From the NCBI GenBank assembly GCA_017962445.1, contig JAGCVI010000013.1, positions 1 to 64,000 on the forward strand: a stretch of DNA of 64,000 nt, given 5' to 3'. The notes beneath the pieces are model-generated. The model ran no database searches, was not told the DNA's origin, and saw nothing but the letters and a program-made list of their open reading frames with translations. Below are positions 6,042 to 13,900 of this stretch, one piece after another; position 1 is the stretch's first letter; each line of letters begins with the position of its first letter. A program made the position numbers and the translations under genes. The stretch comes from Bacteroidales bacterium. GTDB taxonomy: Bacteria; Bacteroidota; Bacteroidia; Bacteroidales; P3.

Positions 6042-8714
6042 TTAGTCCTCGAAAGTGAGTTTGCCACGCTGCTTGTCGAACTGGTACGCACCAAAACGGC
6101 TGAGACCCTCACGGTTGATGATGAACTTGTAGTCAACACCTTTGACCACAACCACCTCGACATTGAAGAGGTGTTTCTGGCCTATCTGCATTTCCTTGAA
6201 GATGATGGTGGTCTTGTCCAGTATATTGCCGTCTGGGTCGAAAGCATTGTCACGGTCTGGGAAATCCTCTTTGTTGATGCGACGCTGATAGAGGAAGTTC
6301 ATGGCTTCCTCCCACGCAATTGCTATCGGCTCTGCATAACGCTCGTCGATAAGCATCGGCATAAGCGAACCGTTGACAATGCACGATATCTCACCCTTGG
6401 CGGACGAAATCATCGTCGCAGTGATGGTACCTTCGTCGTGGATAATCTCAGGTACATAATCACTCTGCGGGATCGGTGTGTTCACCAGGTCGATTATCTT
6501 GCCGTCCTCGGTGCGTTTCACTATAGGAGTCTCAGCAGCAAGGTTGTTGATGAGTTTCTTGGAGACATAGTCGGTACGCAGGATAAGGAACTCCAGACGA
6601 CGGTTCAGCTGATGGGCCGCCTCCTGACGATTCTTGTCAGTCATGTGATTGATATAGTCGCACTCCAGCACGGTGCCCTCCGAGAACGAGTAGGGAACGC
6701 CGTTGACACGGATGGTCATATTGCGGTCAAGGACTCGAGGCACACGTTCTGCATAGCCCTTGGCAACAAGACGCTCAGGCTCGATACCGCGCGAAATCAA
6801 ATAATCAACCACCGACTGGGCTCGACGCTGAGAAAGTGTGTCATTGGTAAGACCCAGGAAGGGGCGGCAGTCAGTATGTGCGCGCAACTCCACCACGATA
6901 TTGGGATTGTTCACCATCACCAGATAGAGGTCCATCAACGAATCCATAAACTCTTCCTTGAGGTCCCACTTGGCGAGGTCATAACGGATTTCAGGCAGCA
7001 CAACAGGCTGTTTCGGCACCGGCTCAAGGCGGAAATCATGCACGATGTCCTTGTCAGTCGTGTAACCGCAGGTGCTTTCCGAACCCTCGATGGTGAAGTA
7101 GTCAACCTTCGACACATACATCTTGTAGACAACATTGCGTTTGATCTGCTCCACTCCGAAACGATAGAAACCCTGCTTGTTGCTGTAGGTCTCGTACTCG
7201 CTGCCGTCAGAGCCAACAATGCGGATCTTTGCATTTTCGACAAGCTGCATAGATTTCTCGTCACGTATTGTACCCTCAATGCTGTAGAGCAGCGGTGGCA
7301 GCTCGAAATAGAAGAGGTCGTCGTTAATCGGCGGAACCTTCTTGCCTTTCTTGTCGGTCTTCTTGTTGTGCGGGTCGTCGAAAGGACGGTTGGACGAGAA
7401 GAAACCGCGTTCAAGCATGTAGTGGTTGTCGCCAGGATAATAGATGATGCTCATTTCGTCATACGACGAGTTGATGGGTATTCCGAGGTTTTCGGGGGTC
7501 GACCATTTGCGACCGTTCTTCTCGCTGCGGAAGATGTCGAGACCACCGACACCCGGCAGACCGTTGGAAGAGAAATAGAGGGTGGTGTCGTCACGAAGAA
7601 TGGGGAACACCTCACGTCCGGCACTGTTGACCGTTCCACCGAGGTTTACCGGTGTGCCGAATTCGTCGTCCACCGACTTGCGGGTGACCATCCAAAGGTC
7701 GTAGTCGCCATAACCGTTGGGCATGTCCGACGAGAAATACATCGTCAGCTGGTCGCGTGTCAGGGTCGGGTACAGATAGTTGTATGCCGTATCGCCCAGA
7801 TTGATGCGTATGGGTTCCGACCATTCGCCGTTCATCTCGGCATTGCTGTTGTCTTTCTTGCCTTTCTTGCCCTTGGTGTCGTCGAGAGAAGAACTCGAAC
7901 CTTTCTGCGAGTAGTAAACGTAGCAGCCCTGGGTCTCATGCTCTCTGGAGTCGCAACGCGAGAAATAGAGACTTTTGCCGTCGGGCGAGAACCACGCCTC
8001 ACCTTCGTTGACTGGAGAGTTTACGACATTGTTCTTGTCAAACAGCTCCACCTCGTTGCTCCAGTTGCCCTTGCGGTCCTGGAAAACATAGAAGAAATCG
8101 GAGAAAGCCTGACCGGTCCATGCGTCATGCTTGGTCGCATCTTCAAGAAAACGAGAAGATGTGAAAACAAGTTTCGAGGTGTCATCACCAATAAAACGCG
8201 GAGCCCAGTCATTGTAGTCGGTCGACCACTGATCAAGCTTCCTGATATTATGGCGCGTACGGTTCATGAACAGCTGGTTGACATAGATAATCGATGCCTT
8301 GCGCTGCTGTGCCAGCTTGTCGTCGGGCACAAGCTCAAGATACTTGCCATAGTATTCGTCCGCCTCGTCAAACTTGTTCTCAAAGCGGTACATCTCTGCC
8401 ATATAGTAATAGAGCTTCGGCTCGGTGGTATAGTATTTCTGGTTTATAAGCCTTTTGTAGATACGCTCAGCCTTCGGGAAATTGTTCATCAAACGGTAGC
8501 ATTCTCCCATCTGGAAATAGCAACGGTTTTTCTCTGCCTTGTTCGAGGTGATTTTGTTATAGGCCTCCTCGTATTTCTCCAAAGCGGCGATGTATTGTTT
8601 CTGGGTGAACAGGTCGTCAGCTTTCTGGGCAATACTTTTGGTCTGAGCAAAAGCCACAGAGGTTAAAAAAAGCGAAACTGCAAACAGCAAAAGACTTTTT
8701 CTGAACGTTTTCAT
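6042..8714 (-). CDS. TPR/PD40/OmpA envelope protein (PorE-like)
   Basis: 890-residue exported protein with signal peptide ending in VAFAQ. Domains in order: TPR repeats (about 30-150), PD40/WD40-like beta-propeller blades with SPDGKSLYFSR and TLYFSSNGLPG (about 165-440), a carboxypeptidase-regulatory-like domain (about 470-560), and an OmpA peptidoglycan-binding domain (about 575-725; ELRAHTDCRP, LSQRRAQSVVDYL, LNRRLEFLI) carrying an insertion, then about 165 extra residues. The architecture matches PorE of the type IX secretion system, but no lipobox is present and the protein is longer, so this is family-level only. It probably links peptidoglycan to an envelope complex. Confidence 0.75.
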   Translation of the reverse strand: MKTFRKSLLLFAVSLFLTSVAFAQTKSIAQKADDLFTQKQYIAALEKYEEAYNKITSNKAEKNRCYFQMGECYRLMNNFPKAERIYKRLINQKYYTTEPKLYYYMAEMYRFENKFDEADEYYGKYLELVPDDKLAQQRKASIIYVNQLFMNRTRHNIRKLDQWSTDYNDWAPRFIGDDTSKLVFTSSRFLEDATKHDAWTGQAFSDFFYVFQDRKGNWSNEVELFDKNNVVNSPVNEGEAWFSPDGKSLYFSRCDSREHETQGCYVYYSQKGSSSSLDDTKGKKGKKDNSNAEMNGEWSEPIRINLGDTAYNYLYPTLTRDQLTMYFSSDMPNGYGDYDLWMVTRKSVDDEFGTPVNLGGTVNSAGREVFPILRDDTTLYFSSNGLPGVGGLDIFRSEKNGRKWSTPENLGIPINSSYDEMSIIYYPGDNHYMLERGFFSSNRPFDDPHNKKTDKKGKKVPPINDDLFYFELPPLLYSIEGTIRDEKSMQLVENAKIRIVGSDGSEYETYSNKQGFYRFGVEQIKRNVVYKMYVSKVDYFTIEGSESTCGYTTDKDIVHDFRLEPVPKQPVVLPEIRYDLAKWDLKEEFMDSLMDLYLVMVNNPNIVVELRAHTDCRPFLGLTNDTLSQRRAQSVVDYLISRGIEPERLVAKGYAERVPRVLDRNMTIRVNGVPYSFSEGTVLECDYINHMTDKNRQEAAHQLNRRLEFLILRTDYVSKKLINNLAAETPIVKRTEDGKIIDLVNTPIPQSDYVPEIIHDEGTITATMISSAKGEISCIVNGSLMPMLIDERYAEPIAIAWEEAMNFLYQRRINKEDFPDRDNAFDPDGNILDKTTIIFKEMQIGQKHLFNVEVVVVKGVDYKFIINREGLSRFGAYQFDKQRGKLTFED

Positions 8715-8920
8715 ATATATATTTTTATCTTATTCTTATGTATAACTATATAATATCCAATACATTAAAACTCATCAACAAGAGTTTCAGTGTATCGAAT
8801 TAATTTGCTAAAATACACATTTTTTTTGAAATACGCACTTTTTCACAAAGAAAATTTGTCCGACGCGGAAGGAGTATCAACGTCATTGTAGTCCTCTGCG
8901 AGGATACAGATGACTGCAAA
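8715..8920. other. Intergenic stretch downstream of the kinase-FGE gene
   Basis: AT-rich. It holds the leader of the PorE-like gene and the 3' region of the kinase-FGE gene. A near -7 match (TATTTTAG, minus strand) lies upstream of 8714. A short hairpin TCCTC-GCA-GAGGA (minus strand) lies about 20 bases after the kinase-FGE stop. I searched it by eye for an adenine-rich template repeat like the FGE variable region and saw none. Confidence 0.4.
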
Positions 8921-10732
8921 CTACTGGACAAGAACCAGGCGGAAGCCAAGGCCGTGGCTGCGGTGCGAGGCGCTGCCGTAGTAGCGATTCGACACACGGC
9001 AGTGCCTGGCGTTGTTGTACCAGCTGCCGCCACGATACACACGGCCCAAGCCAGTAGAAGGGCCTGCGGGGTTGGTCCGCGATGAGCTGCTGTAGTCTTC
9101 ATACCAGTCAGAGCACCACTCCCACACGTTGCCGCTCATGTCGTAAAGACCAAGCACATTAGGGCTCCTTGTCTTGACTGGATGAGTCCTGCTAACGTTA
9201 TCCCAATACCACGCCACATTGCCGACATTCTCGCTGCCGCTGTACTTGTAGCCCCGGCTTTTGCTGCCGCCACGCGCCGCATACTCCCACTCCGCCTCTG
9301 TAGGCAGGCGGAACGTGCGGCCTGTATTGCGGTTCAACTCAAGGATAAAGGCCTGTGCATCGTCCCAGCTGACATTCTCCACTGGCAAATTGTCGCCATT
9401 GAAAGAACTCGGGTTGCTCCCCATCACAGCCTTCCACAACGCCTGTGTCACCTCAGTCTCACCTATGTAATAGCCGCTCAACTTCACACTATGGGCTGGC
9501 TCTTCACTACCGAAACAGTCGCTCCCCTGCTCCGACGTGCAGCCCATCGTAAACGTGCCGCCTTCGACGTAGACCATGTCGAAACTGACGCCGTTAGCGG
9601 TAATAGTCTGCTTAGCCTCTTTTATAACTTTTATTTCATCCCTCTGTTTAGCTGTATCTTCTTGGGATGCAGAGCCCGAGTTGCGAACCAAAGCCACAAT
9701 ACCCACAATAATCAAACAAGCCAAAATCGCAAACAAAATCCACAGCCAAGTTTTGTCTTCACGTTGTTTCTGTACACCATCCAGCTTCACAGTCCGAGCC
9801 TGTGATATCAAAAGCGTCCGTTGCGTCTGCGAATTCTGTTGTGTCTCATCACCAGCGACGTTTTCCGCAGTCCACAGGTTGCTGACAAAACTGTGCACAT
9901 CCTGATAACGGTCAGCAGGGTTAGTCTGCATGGCCTTTATTATGGCGTTGTTGATCTTTGCGGGGATAGCCGGGTTAAGGCTTGCAGGCTCGGGGAACGG
10001 CTCGGTCATACGGGCGGCAGCGTCGACAGGCGGCGTGGCGGTAAGCACGTAATAGAGCGTGGCGCCAAGCGAATAGATGTCGGAATAGCGGCCCTTGCGA
10101 CTGACGGTGGAGTACTGCTCGGGCGGTGCATAACCGCGTGTAAGCATGGATGTATGTGCCTGAGTCTTGTCGTCAACAAACTCTCGTGCCGAGCCGAAGT
10201 CAATAAGTATGGCCCTATAGTCGCCGGTTATCATGATATTGCCTGGCTTGATGTCGCGGTGCAGGATGTTGCAGTCATGGATATACCCCACCGCCTCGGC
10301 AATCTGCGACATGTAGTTCTTAGCCTCGTCTAGCGGCAGCGCGCCGCGCTTGACGACAAGCGATTCGAGAGTCTGCCCCTCAATGAACTGCATGACCATA
10401 TAGGCGGTGTTGTTCTCTTGGAACACGCCGATGACATCAACGACATTGGGATGGCTGACCGATGCCACCATCTCAGCCTCATGGACAAACGCTTTCCTAT
10501 ATTTCTCAAACTGCTCAATGAAACTTGCTTTGCACTCCACACGCAATGAACCCTCTCTGCGGAAACAACATCCATCAAGGAAATACTCCTTAATGCAGAC
10601 CTTCCGATTGAGGTCGTTCTGCCGCGCGACATAGGTGATGCTGAAACCACCCTCGCCTATTTTACCAAGAATGGTATACTCTCCCCCTTTGAGGATTGTG
10701 CCTACTGGCAATGATGTGTGAGGATCTTCCAT
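8921..10732 (-). CDS. Ser/Thr kinase - membrane helix - FGE-sulfatase-domain protein, variable C-terminus
   Basis: 603 residues. An intact Hanks-type kinase spans about 18-285: G-loop GEGGFSITY, Lys48 in VCIKEYF, HRDIKPGNIM (158-167), DFG (178-180), APPEQY. One helix at 328-349 (WLWILFAILACLIIVGIVAL) follows basic residues, so the kinase should be cytoplasmic and the FGE/C-type-lectin-like domain (375-603; GGTFTMGC, LPTEAEWEYAARGG, DMSGNVWEWCSDW) periplasmic or surface-exposed. Residues 571-596 are a hypervariable patch before GFRLVLVQ; nearly all variable codons are NNC (TAC, AAC, CAC, AGC, GGC), as expected from AAC codons of a DGR template. The FGE fold is probably used for binding, not sulfatase activation. 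The -7 box here reads TAATTTCG, one base off consensus. Confidence 0.85.
   Translation of the reverse strand: MEDPHTSLPVGTILKGGEYTILGKIGEGGFSITYVARQNDLNRKVCIKEYFLDGCCFRREGSLRVECKASFIEQFEKYRKAFVHEAEMVASVSHPNVVDVIGVFQENNTAYMVMQFIEGQTLESLVVKRGALPLDEAKNYMSQIAEAVGYIHDCNILHRDIKPGNIMITGDYRAILIDFGSAREFVDDKTQAHTSMLTRGYAPPEQYSTVSRKGRYSDIYSLGATLYYVLTATPPVDAAARMTEPFPEPASLNPAIPAKINNAIIKAMQTNPADRYQDVHSFVSNLWTAENVAGDETQQNSQTQRTLLISQARTVKLDGVQKQREDKTWLWILFAILACLIIVGIVALVRNSGSASQEDTAKQRDEIKVIKEAKQTITANGVSFDMVYVEGGTFTMGCTSEQGSDCFGSEEPAHSVKLSGYYIGETEVTQALWKAVMGSNPSSFNGDNLPVENVSWDDAQAFILELNRNTGRTFRLPTEAEWEYAARGGSKSRGYKYSGSENVGNVAWYWDNVSRTHPVKTRSPNVLGLYDMSGNVWEWCSDWYEDYSSSSRTNPAGPSTGLGRVYRGGSWYNNARHCRVSNRYYGSASHRSHGLGFRLVLVQ
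8945..9024 (-). other. Candidate DGR variable region in kinase-FGE paralogue 1
   Basis: Covers codons 570-596. Against the neighbouring paralogue about 15 of the 24 residues between the conserved Trp and LGFRLVLVQ differ, while 29 residues further upstream in the same domain are identical. Variable codons here are TAC, AAC, AAC, CAC, TAC, TAC, GGC, AGC, CAC, AGC, CAC, GGC: all end in C, which adenine-specific mutagenesis of AAC codons would give. The 20 bases TGGTTCTTGTCCAGTAGTTT after it are identical in both copies and could act as the mutagenic homing anchor. Inference only: no reverse transcriptase or template is in the window. Confidence 0.45.
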
Positions 10733-10838
10733 AATCTATTTTATCAAAACTATTACTACGAAATTAAAGCATCAACTCGGCTCCGCTTCTCGCCGTTTTC
10801 TCGCCTTCTCTCTTAGGTTGTTTTTTTCGTGACATAAA

Positions 10839-12155
10839 CTACTGGACAAGAACCAAACGGAAGCCCAGGATGAAGTTGTGGAGCGAAGCGTTAAAGTGGT
10901 TGCGATCTGATACACGGCATCGCCAGGCATGCATGCCCCAGCTCCCACCACGATTCACACGGTACGAACCAGAAGAAGAACCTTCAGGATTGGTCTGCGA
11001 TAAGATTATGTAGCTGCCAAACCAGTCAGAGCACCACTCAGAAACGTTGCCACTCATGTCATAAAGCCCGAGTTCATTGGGTCTCTTTGTCTTGACTGGA
11101 TGAGTCTTGTTACCGCTGTTGTCCCTATACCACGCCACACTGTCTATACTCTCGCTGCCGCTGTACTTGTAGCCCCGGCTTTTGCTGCCGCCTCGCGCAG
11201 CATACTCCCACTCGGCCTCCGTAGGCAGGCGGAACGTGCGACCTGTAATGCGGTTCAACTCGCGGATGAATATCTGGACATCGTCCCAACTGACACGATA
11301 AGCAGGATAATTGTCACCATAACCAAACTCTGATGTCCATCCATCCATGTATGTCGGCTCGCTCCCCATCACCGCCTTCCACAACGCCTGCGTCACCTCA
11401 GTTTCTCCAATATAATAGTTGCTCAATGTCACCTGATGGTATGGTTTTTCCCAACAATCACAATCGCTTCCCTGTTCAGACGTGCAGCCCATCGTAAACG
11501 TGCCGCCTTCGACATATACCATATCAAAACTGACACCGTTAACGGTAATAGTCTGCTTAGCCTCTTTTCCAAGCTTTTGTTCTTCCGTATCTTTATTCGC
11601 TGCTGATCCCGAGTTGTGGACCGAAGTCACAACAGCCACAATAATCAAACAAGCCAAAATCGCCAAAAAAATCCACAGCCAAGTTTTGTTTTTACGGCGT
11701 TTCTGTACAACATCTCGCTTCACTGACTGAGCCTGTGATGTTAAAGGTGCCTGTTGCGTCTGCGAAGTTTGTTGTGTGGCACCTGGGGAGAGTGTCTGGC
11801 TCTCGATGAACTGCATGACCATGTAGTCTGTGTTGTTTTCGCTAAAGATAGCAATCACATCCACTACATTGAGATGGTTAATTGTTGCCACCATCTCGGC
11901 CTCACGGACAAACTCCTTTCGATATTTCTCAAACTGCTCTATGAAAATTGGTTTGCACTCCACACGCAGCGAACCCTCACTACGAAAACAACACCCATCA
12001 AGGAAATACTCCTTGATGCAGACCTTCCGATTGAGGCTGTTCTGTTGCGCAGCGTATGTTATGCTGAAATCATCCTCACCTATTTTATCAAGAATGGTAT
12101 ACTCTCCTCCTTTGAGGATTGTGCCTACTGGCAACGCTTTGTAAGAATTTTCCAT
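10839..12155 (-). CDS. Paralogue of kinase-FGE protein lacking the kinase catalytic core
   Basis: 438 residues. Residues 1-122 match the kinase N-lobe of the neighbouring gene, including VCIKEYF, but the G-loop reads GEDDF instead of GEGGF and the sequence then jumps from MQFIESQTL directly to the linker SPGATQQTSQTQ. About 175 residues with HRD, DFG and APE regions are missing, in frame. The helix (159-180) and FGE domain (about 205-438) are kept. It cannot be an active kinase; it may be a membrane-anchored binding protein or decoy. The C-terminal 24-residue patch differs strongly from paralogue 1. It has an intact -7 box (TAATTTTG) 36 bases upstream. Confidence 0.85.
   Translation of the reverse strand: MENSYKALPVGTILKGGEYTILDKIGEDDFSITYAAQQNSLNRKVCIKEYFLDGCCFRSEGSLRVECKPIFIEQFEKYRKEFVREAEMVATINHLNVVDVIAIFSENNTDYMVMQFIESQTLSPGATQQTSQTQQAPLTSQAQSVKRDVVQKRRKNKTWLWIFLAILACLIIVAVVTSVHNSGSAANKDTEEQKLGKEAKQTITVNGVSFDMVYVEGGTFTMGCTSEQGSDCDCWEKPYHQVTLSNYYIGETEVTQALWKAVMGSEPTYMDGWTSEFGYGDNYPAYRVSWDDVQIFIRELNRITGRTFRLPTEAEWEYAARGGSKSRGYKYSGSESIDSVAWYRDNSGNKTHPVKTKRPNELGLYDMSGNVSEWCSDWFGSYIILSQTNPEGSSSGSYRVNRGGSWGMHAWRCRVSDRNHFNASLHNFILGFRLVLVQ
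10863..10942 (-). other. Candidate variable region in paralogue 2
   Basis: Covers codons 404-430, between GGSW and LGFRLVLVQ. The residues differ from paralogue 1 at 15 positions. Unlike paralogue 1, several codons (ATG, CAT, TGG, TTT, CTC) are not simple adenine substitutions of AAC, so older divergence or a different template must be invoked. Confidence 0.4.
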
Positions 12156-12190: not shown

Positions 12191-12198
12191 CAAAATTA
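12191..12198 (-). promoter_or_regulatory. -7 promoter element of kinase-FGE paralogue 2
   Basis: The minus strand reads TAATTTTG, an exact TAnnTTTG match, overlapping the last codons of queD and 36 bases before the ATG at 12155. The duplicated counterpart upstream of paralogue 1 (10759-10766) reads TAATTTCG. Confidence 0.5.
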
Positions 12199-12639
12199 AA
12201 GCAACAACTCGGCAAACGAGGTGTCGGTTTCGTACAAGCGCATGGAATACAGTTTCACCCCGTCGGGGAACCTGCCATCAAGCAAACGCGCAAAATATAG
12301 CAACATGTTCTCACAAGTGGGCTGGAACGGTGTGACAATCATTTTAGGTTTGTCTTCCTGATTGTCAACTCCGTTGAGCAACGACAGATACGGCGACCCT
12401 TCAGGTAACACAAGAGCATGGTCCAACGGCTCAACCACATACTTTTCGACAATACATTTTATGTCCGAAAAATCGATTACCATTCCATTTTTGGCCTCGT
12501 CGGGGTTATCGATGGGCGTACCTTCCACGGTTACCATAAGCTTATAATTGTGTCCGTGTATATTCCGGCACTTGCCGTCGTAGCCGCACAAGGCGTGCGC
12601 CATCTGGAAATCAAATTGTTTGGTCAGTCGTAGCTGCAT
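12196..12639 (-). CDS. queD: 6-carboxytetrahydropterin synthase-like protein (QueD/PTPS family)
   Basis: 147 residues. It is expected to convert 7,8-dihydroneopterin triphosphate to 6-carboxytetrahydropterin in queuosine (preQ0) synthesis. Zinc ligands are visible as FQMAHAL and the pair in CRNIHGHNY; a Cys-containing loop (CGYDGKC) and the DFSDIK and PTCEN motifs fit the family. The start is placed at ATG 12639 (MQLRLTKQFDF); a longer reading frame would run back into clpX and lacks family similarity. It ends the mrdA-rodA-clpX-queD run. Its final bases are repeated upstream of the neighbouring kinase-FGE gene. Confidence 0.88.
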   Translation of the reverse strand: MQLRLTKQFDFQMAHALCGYDGKCRNIHGHNYKLMVTVEGTPIDNPDEAKNGMVIDFSDIKCIVEKYVVEPLDHALVLPEGSPYLSLLNGVDNQEDKPKMIVTPFQPTCENMLLYFARLLDGRFPDGVKLYSMRLYETDTSFAELLL

Positions 12640-12658
12640 ATCTGATATTATTTGGAGG

Positions 12659-13900
12659 TTATTGTTGCAAGAGGGTTTTGGAATGGCTAAGCTTGTCAGT
12701 GGTGAACTTCTTGGTAATCTTGATTTTCTCACCCTTATGCGACGGCAGTTCAAACATCAGGTCATTCATCACCGACTCCACAATTGAACGCAGACCACGG
12801 GCACCAAGTTTGTACTCAACAGCCGTGTCGACAATGACATCGAGCGCACCTTTGTCGAACTCCAGCTCCACATCGTCCATCTTGAAGAGCTGCTGATACT
12901 GCTTCACCAATGCATTCTTCGGCTCCGTCAAGATGCGTCGCAATGCGTCGCGGTCGAGCGGGTTGAGGTGTGTGAGCACTGGGAAGCGTCCTACCAGTTC
13001 AGGTATGAGACCGAATTTCTTCAAGTCCATGGGAAGTATGTATTTCAGCATATTGTGACGGTCGATTTCTTCGCGTGTCTTTGTGCCGTTGAAACCCACA
13101 ACGTTCGACTTCATACGCGAGGCGATATCTCGCTCTATACCGTCGAATGCTCCTCCCGAAATAAAGAGGATATTCCGCGTATCGACCTGTATCATCTGTT
13201 GTTCAGGATGCTTGCGGCCTCCCTGCGGTGGCACGTTGACAACAGCTCCCTCAAGCAATTTAAGCAGTGCCTGCTGCACACCTTCGCCCGACACATCGCG
13301 GGTGATGGACGGATTGTCGCTCTTACGGGCTATCTTGTCTATCTCGTCGATGAAGACAATACCTCTCTCGGCGGCAGCCACATCATAATCGGCAGCCTGC
13401 AGCAAACGCACCAACACATTCTCCACATCATCACCCACATAGCCGGCCTCAGTCAGTGTGGTGGCATCGGCAATGCAGAACGGAACATCGAGCATCCTTG
13501 CTATAGTCCTGGCCATAAGGGTCTTTCCTGTTCCAGTCTCTCCGACAAGGATGATATTGGATTTCTCTATCTCAACATCGTTACCGTCCTTGTGCCTCTC
13601 ACAGTAACGAAGCCGTTTGTAGTGGTTGTACACCGCAACGGACAACACCTTCTTGGCATCCTCCTGTCCTATGACATACTGATCCATAAGTGCTTTTATC
13701 TCTGATGGTGTAGGGATAGGCTTGTTGTCGTTCCTGACAGGATGTTTATGATTTGCAGTATGCTCCTGCTGGTCGACAATCAAACTGGCCTGATGCACAC
13801 AGTCTGAGCAGATGTATCCATTCAATCCAGTCAGCAACATCGAGCATTCTGACGCGGGACGACCGCAAAACGAGCATTTATCTTCTGTCTTTTTTGTCAT
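12659..13900 (-). CDS. clpX: ATP-dependent Clp protease ATP-binding subunit ClpX
   Basis: 413-residue AAA+ unfoldase that delivers substrates to ClpP in the cytoplasm. The N-terminal zinc domain is seen as CSFCG...CSDC, the Walker A as [11 protein letters not shown], Walker B as IVFIDEID, and the substrate pore loop as AGYVGDD. Sensor-2 is in [10 protein letters not shown]. Length is normal. It starts 30 bases after rodA ends. No clpP lies in the window. Confidence 0.97.

Follow-up and report, generated by a model that had tools for sequence, protein, structure and literature searches.

A receptor kinase of a Bacteroidales bacterium whose FGE domain very probably ends in the variable repeat of a diversity-generating retroelement

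Two tandem paralogous genes, here called W1 and W2, lie on the minus strand of a 64,000-nucleotide stretch of a Bacteroidales bacterium (assembly GCA_017962445.1, contig JAGCVI010000013.1, positions 1 to 64,000; hereafter the window), and both open reading frames (ORFs) of the 8921-12155 region were confirmed. It was found that W1 is very probably a receptor kinase with a variable repeat (VR) of a diversity-generating retroelement (DGR) at the end of its FGE/C-type-lectin domain. The domain families, an inverted codon-position pattern among paralogues, an adenine bias against the templates of congeners, and a block of shared sequence terminating just past the stop codon were observed directly. 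The genome comprises 2.04 Mb in 38 contigs and is rated 80% complete. In the following, C labels denote contigs (the window contig is C35), G labels denote genomes of a Bacteroidales-like genus of 120 genomes, and L labels denote loci.

W1 has the features of a Hanks-type receptor kinase, namely the catalytic motifs and one predicted membrane helix (Table 1). An earlier note, made from the letters of this DNA, had described two kinase-FGE paralogues. Both proteins do end in an FGE domain, but the kinase part of the description holds for W1 and not for W2, since W1 residues 123-307 lie opposite just 15 residues of W2, so that the HRD and DFG region and its catalytic motifs are missing from the latter. 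Judging from its sequence, W2 is probably an older copy without the catalytic lobe and with phosphorylation lost.

DGR targets typically carry their variable repeat in the terminal part of a gene for a C-type-lectin/FGE fold, and W1 is variable in just this place. Between RGGSW and LGFRLVLVQ, 15 of the 23 residues differ between W1 and W2; the earlier note had the same 15 differences in a patch of 24. This is the most different 23-column window in the W1-W2 FGE alignment. The final nine residues are identical, as are the 20 bases after the patch, both as stated earlier, and the identical run upstream of the patch proved to be 32 residues long instead of 29. The patch is also the most variable window across seven paralogues of the genome, with a mean of 4.2 distinct residues versus 2.2 overall; ten columns have six or more residues, six of them inside the patch and one directly before RGGSW. 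The proposed enrichment of NNC at the variable codons was borne out in W1 (13/15 versus 193/588 elsewhere, p 3e-5) and was also seen in W2 (9/15 versus 102/423, p 0.004). The W1 patch has one cysteine (CRVS), which may bear on the catalytic cysteine pair of FGE.

There are 12 FGE matches in the genome, five of which are tandem genes on contig C2 (C2a-C2e) with N-termini that look exported or anchored when the sequence is read. For all 21 pairs of the seven copies, changes by codon position in the patch were compared with those in the upstream FGE sequence; a copy on C31 was aligned but excluded. In the W1-C2a pair, the patch differs at 21/74 of positions 1-2 and 5/37 of position 3, while the upstream sequence differs at 68/378 and 80/189, respectively (p 8e-4 for the ratio and 5e-4 for position 3). 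The W1-C2e pair gave 25/74 and 5/37 in the patch against 55/376 and 86/188 upstream (p 8e-6 and 1e-4), and the C2a-C2e pair 24/74 and 4/37 against 46/378 and 52/189 (p 2e-4 and 0.02). These three are exactly the pairs with third-position depletion at p < 0.05. As a positive control, a target pair of the congener G080, which has a DGR of its own, showed 19 changes at positions 1-2 and 0/38 at position 3.

After the TAGTTT at the end of W1, no evident likeness to C2a was seen (23-53% in sliding windows). Thus, the block shared by W1 and C2a ends there, just past the stop codon. Past the patch, C2a matches C2e exactly over about 90 bases, indicating that conversion or duplication occurs in the C2 array, and gene conversion among the paralogues combined with selection might have given the shared third positions. 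This explanation is very improbable, as conversion would have copied the variable bases too, and W1 lies on another contig with the shared block stopping at TAGTTT.

Does the genus have a DGR of the kind that these patterns suggest? From W1, C2a, and C2e, a template repeat (TR) of RGGSWNNNARNCRVSNRNNN with an open middle was predicted before the relatives were fetched, although the general look of such templates was known from the literature. I found a DGR-type reverse transcriptase (RT) with a template in five of the 120 genomes of the genus, namely G039 (L071), G080 (L073), G040 (L074), G097 (L072), and G073 (L081), whose RTs have the motifs IGNLTSQ and YMDD. Their template peptide reads RGGSWNNNA(R/K)NCRV(A/S/T)NRNNN; over the first 20 residues there are 0 to 2 mismatches to the prediction (none in G073), and in the later portion the congeners have TPSN, TPGN, TPDN, or APSN where the query has ASN. 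The DNA search that recovered the five templates used a query revised after the templates were known and is not independent. FGE relatives of W1 adjoin the RT and template as targets in four of the five. RT, template, and target are all present in G039, G080, and G040, where the differences between TR and VR fall on 16/32, 16/31, 16/31, and 16/29 A sites (G039, two comparisons in G080, and G040, respectively) and on 0/67, 0/68, 0/68, and 0/70 other sites. G097 has the RT and template near two FGE genes, and G073 has the RT and template. More broadly, the DGR RT of Bacteroides phage p00 (Hankyphage) gave matches in 19 of the 120 genomes, though not in the window genome, and several of these matches adjoin FGE relatives of W1. 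Unlike W1, the congener targets adjoin their RT and template, have signal-like N-termini as read there, and lack a kinase. The domain order of W1 recurs in G084 (L198, 604 aa), a 71%-complete genome that gave no DGR RT match, with a kinase part 38% identical to that of W1, and in another lineage at L123 (526 aa). The L123 gene lies beside an HRDC gene, an RT, and a template, with differences at 16/30 A sites and 3/63 others. Thus, the kinase-FGE architecture is a DGR target elsewhere.

A few features of these loci may be recorded. The HRDC gene was seen in L071 and L123; L071 is the one congener DGR of the five that was checked for it. In L071 (5342-6463, minus strand), the template repeat is in frame within the end of the RT ORF, so that the RT would bear the template peptide as a tail. 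In L071 and L073, a stretch of about 37 bases immediately following the template repeat recurs inverted after the variable repeats (score 47-50 inverted, 25-26 direct); this inverted stretch was not seen in L074.

The congener templates were then available as guides to the adenine sites, the window genome having yielded no template. The templates of G039, G097, G080, and G040 were applied to the 10 pairs of five of the seven copies (C2d and C2e were left out due to extra codons, and C31 was also out). Between W1 and C2a, 20/32 A sites differ with the G039 template and 17/27, 18/31, and 17/29 with the other three, against 3/67, 6/72, 5/68, and 6/70 non-A sites (p 6e-10 to 4e-7). The bias is weaker between W1 and W2, at 18/32 A sites and 13/67 others. 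In an upstream control guided by the congener target genes, no A bias was found, with odds ratios of 0.57-1.17 in 24/24 comparisons.

Several observations, in these patterns and in the searches of the genome described below, weigh against a DGR origin of the W1 patch. Third-position depletion is significant in three of the 21 pairs, without correction and with one at p 0.02. Third positions are not depleted between W1 and W2, with 11/37 in the patch and 57/189 upstream. Since they diverge there as elsewhere, the W1-W2 comparison on its own is consistent with ordinary divergence under selection, and it was rejected as proof of a DGR. The proposal of the earlier note that the patches are DGR variable repeats is supported for W1, where it rests on third positions shared with C2a and C2e, adenine bias, and the congener RT and templates, and is not supported by the W1-W2 comparison itself. 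The A-site bias is significant in 40/40 combinations of pair and template, including pairs lacking the third-position signal, so that exposure of these residues on the protein accounts for some of it. The extra patch codons of C2d and C2e are not readily explained by a DGR. Finally, W1 and C2a have three to six non-A differences, where the four congener TR/VR comparisons have none, so that the last copying of the template may be old. Ordinary diversifying selection on a ligand-binding surface, with no retroelement, would account for the W1-W2 pattern, for an A-site bias in every pair, and for the wide variation of FGE tips among 80 Bacteroidota-type loci examined. It would not, however, bring the share of differing third positions down from 42% to 14% in the very stretch with the greatest divergence at positions 1-2 (W1-C2a and W1-C2e), and relatives carry an RT and templates of the predicted kind; this explanation is improbable.

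The earlier note had named the lack of an RT and a template in the genome as half of what would speak against its proposal. Neither was found in the 80%-complete assembly: no DGR-type RT was obtained by a profile search or with the Hankyphage and G039 DGR RTs as queries, and two template-like DNA queries matched known gene ends in addition to short matches at chance level. The five matches of the G039 RT in the genome are all template-like tails of FGE genes. The single PF00078 RT of the genome (C5, L001) was rejected as a DGR source, being retron-like with the motif MGAPTSP, which is not of the SQ type, and with RT-Protease, RT-TIR, and RT-Toprim as the best PADLOC models; in L001 (1276-3345, plus strand), this retron-type RT is followed by a DnaB-like protein. 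No template repeat lies in the window, as had been claimed, since an 87-base pattern allowing A for any C, G, or T, with up to three mismatches, matched W1 alone. In a narrow test, viral contigs contained no match to one exact 27-base template core; an FGE protein search of the viral collection gave six loci at 40-49% identity. A source in trans, as the earlier note had it, was thus not located.

Two explanations of the missing machinery have to be weighed. The repeats may have been written by a DGR since lost from the lineage, with the patches now drifting, and I give this close to an even chance. It would agree with the outcome of the searches, with the non-A differences between W1 and C2a, with the ordinary third-position divergence of the W2 patch and the lost kinase C-lobe of W2, and with the fact that W1 (C35, position 8921) and the C2 array lie away from contig ends. 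On the other hand, about one fifth of the genome is missing, and congener DGR loci lie on short contigs in three of five cases (6.8 kb in G040, 9.9 kb in G073, and 16.5 kb in G080, with 57 kb in G097 and 65 kb in G039). In addition, G018, which is 96% complete, shows the signature in a pair of TIR-FGE genes (22 changes at positions 1-2 and 2/39 at position 3) without a DGR RT match, and its contig stops 8 bases past the second FGE match. The other explanation, somewhat short of an even chance, is a DGR active in trans, its RT and template lying on a mobile element or in sequence missing from the assembly. The short contigs of congener DGR loci and the contig break in G018, the five genomes with an assembled RT and template of the same type, and the one template signature common to W1 and C2a on different contigs would favor it, while the lack of any find, including the narrow viral test, speaks against it. 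Between loss of the machinery, a gap in the assembly, and supply in trans, loss seems slightly the likelier to me, given that neither W1 nor the C2 array sits at the end of a contig and that both carry some non-A changes.

A TIR-FGE pair of G095 (99% complete) has no clear signature (19 changes at positions 1-2 and 11/39 at position 3, p 0.09), and the cross pairs of G018 and G095 (16 and 6, and 21 and 7 changes; p 0.04 and 0.02) are weaker than the G018 pair; a G051 pair was dropped, as no frame was found. TIR-like N-termini fused to FGE domains with variable tips were seen in the congener loci L204, L208, L209, and L210, with PF13676 confirmed in L204 and in one L209 gene.

If W1 is a DGR target, a DGR RT would have copied a template repeat reading approximately RGGSWNNNARNCRVSNRNNN..., mutating adenines, and the cDNA would then have taken the place of the 3′ ends of W1 and at least two paralogues that look exported (C2a and C2e). 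The writing machinery would have acted from elsewhere in the genome. The tip would thereby be rewritten while the scaffold, the kinase, and the helix stay fixed. The patch is most likely a ligand-binding face, because among solved sequences the FGE domain is closest to the DGR variable protein TvpA (Treponema denticola variable protein 1, PDB 2Y3C; E 1.7e-46), with the tip within the alignment. The matched chain of TvpA covers the FGE part only, and no kinase part was matched. The helix would put the FGE domain outside the cytoplasm and the kinase inside, and ligand binding may be relayed to the kinase. It may further be speculated that one trans-acting DGR of the genus writes a common variable tip onto the receptor kinase, exported FGE proteins, and congener TIR proteins, making an anticipatory sensor repertoire with dead copies such as W2 as decoys or modulators, but I consider this rather unlikely.

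DGR targets with a kinase and a C-type lectin (CLec) domain are already known. In cyanobacteria, DGR variable proteins with an N-terminal Ser/Thr kinase and a C-terminal CLec are described, including remote targets (PMC7517822). As far as that report describes them, they resemble W1 in having a kinase and a C-terminal CLec with a variable repeat and in having dispersed paralogues diversified away from the RT, and most are predicted to be cytosolic, some having a helix or signal peptide. W1 and W2 differ in the Bacteroidales-like genome, the helix between the kinase and the domain, the lack of an RT found, and the paralogue without a catalytic lobe. For Thiohalocapsa PB-PSB1, DGR targets that are putative antigen sensors have been described, together with activity in trans and degenerate loci (PMC10907252). 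What is described there shares with the W1 case the FGE subtype of CLec and, among the target domains, TIR and Pkinase; in contrast to the W1 case, that genome contains complete RT/TR loci, and partners from conflict systems are named. Particular to the present case are the helix between the kinase and the variable domain and the twin without a catalytic lobe. An open-access-leaning literature search of titles and abstract openings gave no DGR-diversified receptor kinase in Bacteroidales, which is no proof of absence from print. DGR-diversified signalling receptors would thus extend to a Bacteroidales-like genus in which five of 120 genomes have an RT and template, and W1 would provide a receptor kinase with an outer domain suitable for ligand tests. 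Comparing codon positions statistically among paralogues can expose DGR writing where the machinery is unassembled or gone.

Table 1. Features of the W1-W2 region (positions in the window)
Feature	Position	Strand	Basis
W1, 603-aa Hanks-type Ser/Thr kinase, single membrane helix, FGE/C-type-lectin domain with variable patch	8921..10732	-	ORF; Pfam PF00069 E 3e-45, PF03781 E 2.3e-48; HRDIKPGN and DFG read
W1 kinase domain, residues ~19-275	9908..10678	-	Pfam; solved relatives including PpkA, StkP, PknB
W1 predicted membrane helix, approximate ends	9686..9748	-	Hydropathy scan; putative topology
W1 FGE/C-type-lectin domain	8933..9580	-	Pfam; closest solved sequence, 2Y3C (T. denticola variable protein 1)
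W1 putative DGR variable repeat, approximate ends	8918..9053	-	5′ end from similarity to congener TR/VR blocks; 3′ end set at TAGTTT
W1 hypervariable 23 codons, RGGSW to LGFRLVLVQ	8951..9019	-	Paralogue alignment
20 bases TGGTTCTTGTCCAGTAGTTT identical to W2 after patch; candidate 3′ homing anchor	8918..8937	-	W1-W2 comparison
Hairpin just downstream of W1 stop; possible DGR target hairpin, weak	8882..8914	-	z -2.2; 5/200 shuffles fold as well
W2, 438-aa paralogue: kinase N-lobe only, membrane helix, FGE domain	10839..12155	-	ORF; Pfam; W1 alignment
Kinase N-lobe left in W2, residues 1-122, with 80% identity to W1	11790..12155	-	Alignment
W2 predicted membrane helix, approximate ends	11619..11681	-	Hydropathy scan
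W2 FGE/C-type-lectin domain	10851..11525	-	PF03781 E 2.7e-50
W2 hypervariable 23 codons; putative older or decayed variable repeat	10869..10937	-	No third-position depletion

The hairpin in Table 1 was rejected as a DGR diagnostic, as W1 alone has one among six folded sequences, the others being W2, C2a, C2e, and two congener VRs. The surroundings of W1 and W2 look like a housekeeping stretch, judging from what are presumably queD- and clpX-like genes at 12196-13900 and a TPR/OmpA-like gene at 6042-8714. The sequence after the stop codons of W2, C2a, and C2e (TAGTTTATGTCA..., window 10733-10838 and the L014 intergenic sequence) is common to W2 and the C2 array.

The genome has an expanded set of W1-type kinases, with 11 matches at E 1e-30 or better including W1 and W2. 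Six other kinase ORFs have sequence other than FGE after the helix, and the FGE tip seems to be one among several outer parts on the kinases of this genome. A kinase copy on C12 (L245, C12:19838-20590, minus strand) is 84% identical to W1, has an internal stop, and ends right after the kinase domain. Among the FGE matches of the genome are genes that I take to be GldJ/GldK-like, and C2c (L014:5438-6727, minus strand) has a SPOR domain after the FGE domain. Elsewhere, relatives were found mostly in metagenome-assembled genomes of Bacteroidales. A wider contig search matched at least 594 stretches, of which 587 encode relatives and 80 were kept; by loose patterns, an RT with the SQ motif is present in eight of the kept loci and a template-like peptide in six. 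ORFs with multiple FGE domains in tandem also occur, of 1692 aa in G059:C41 (L203) and of 767 aa in G013:C106 (L202).

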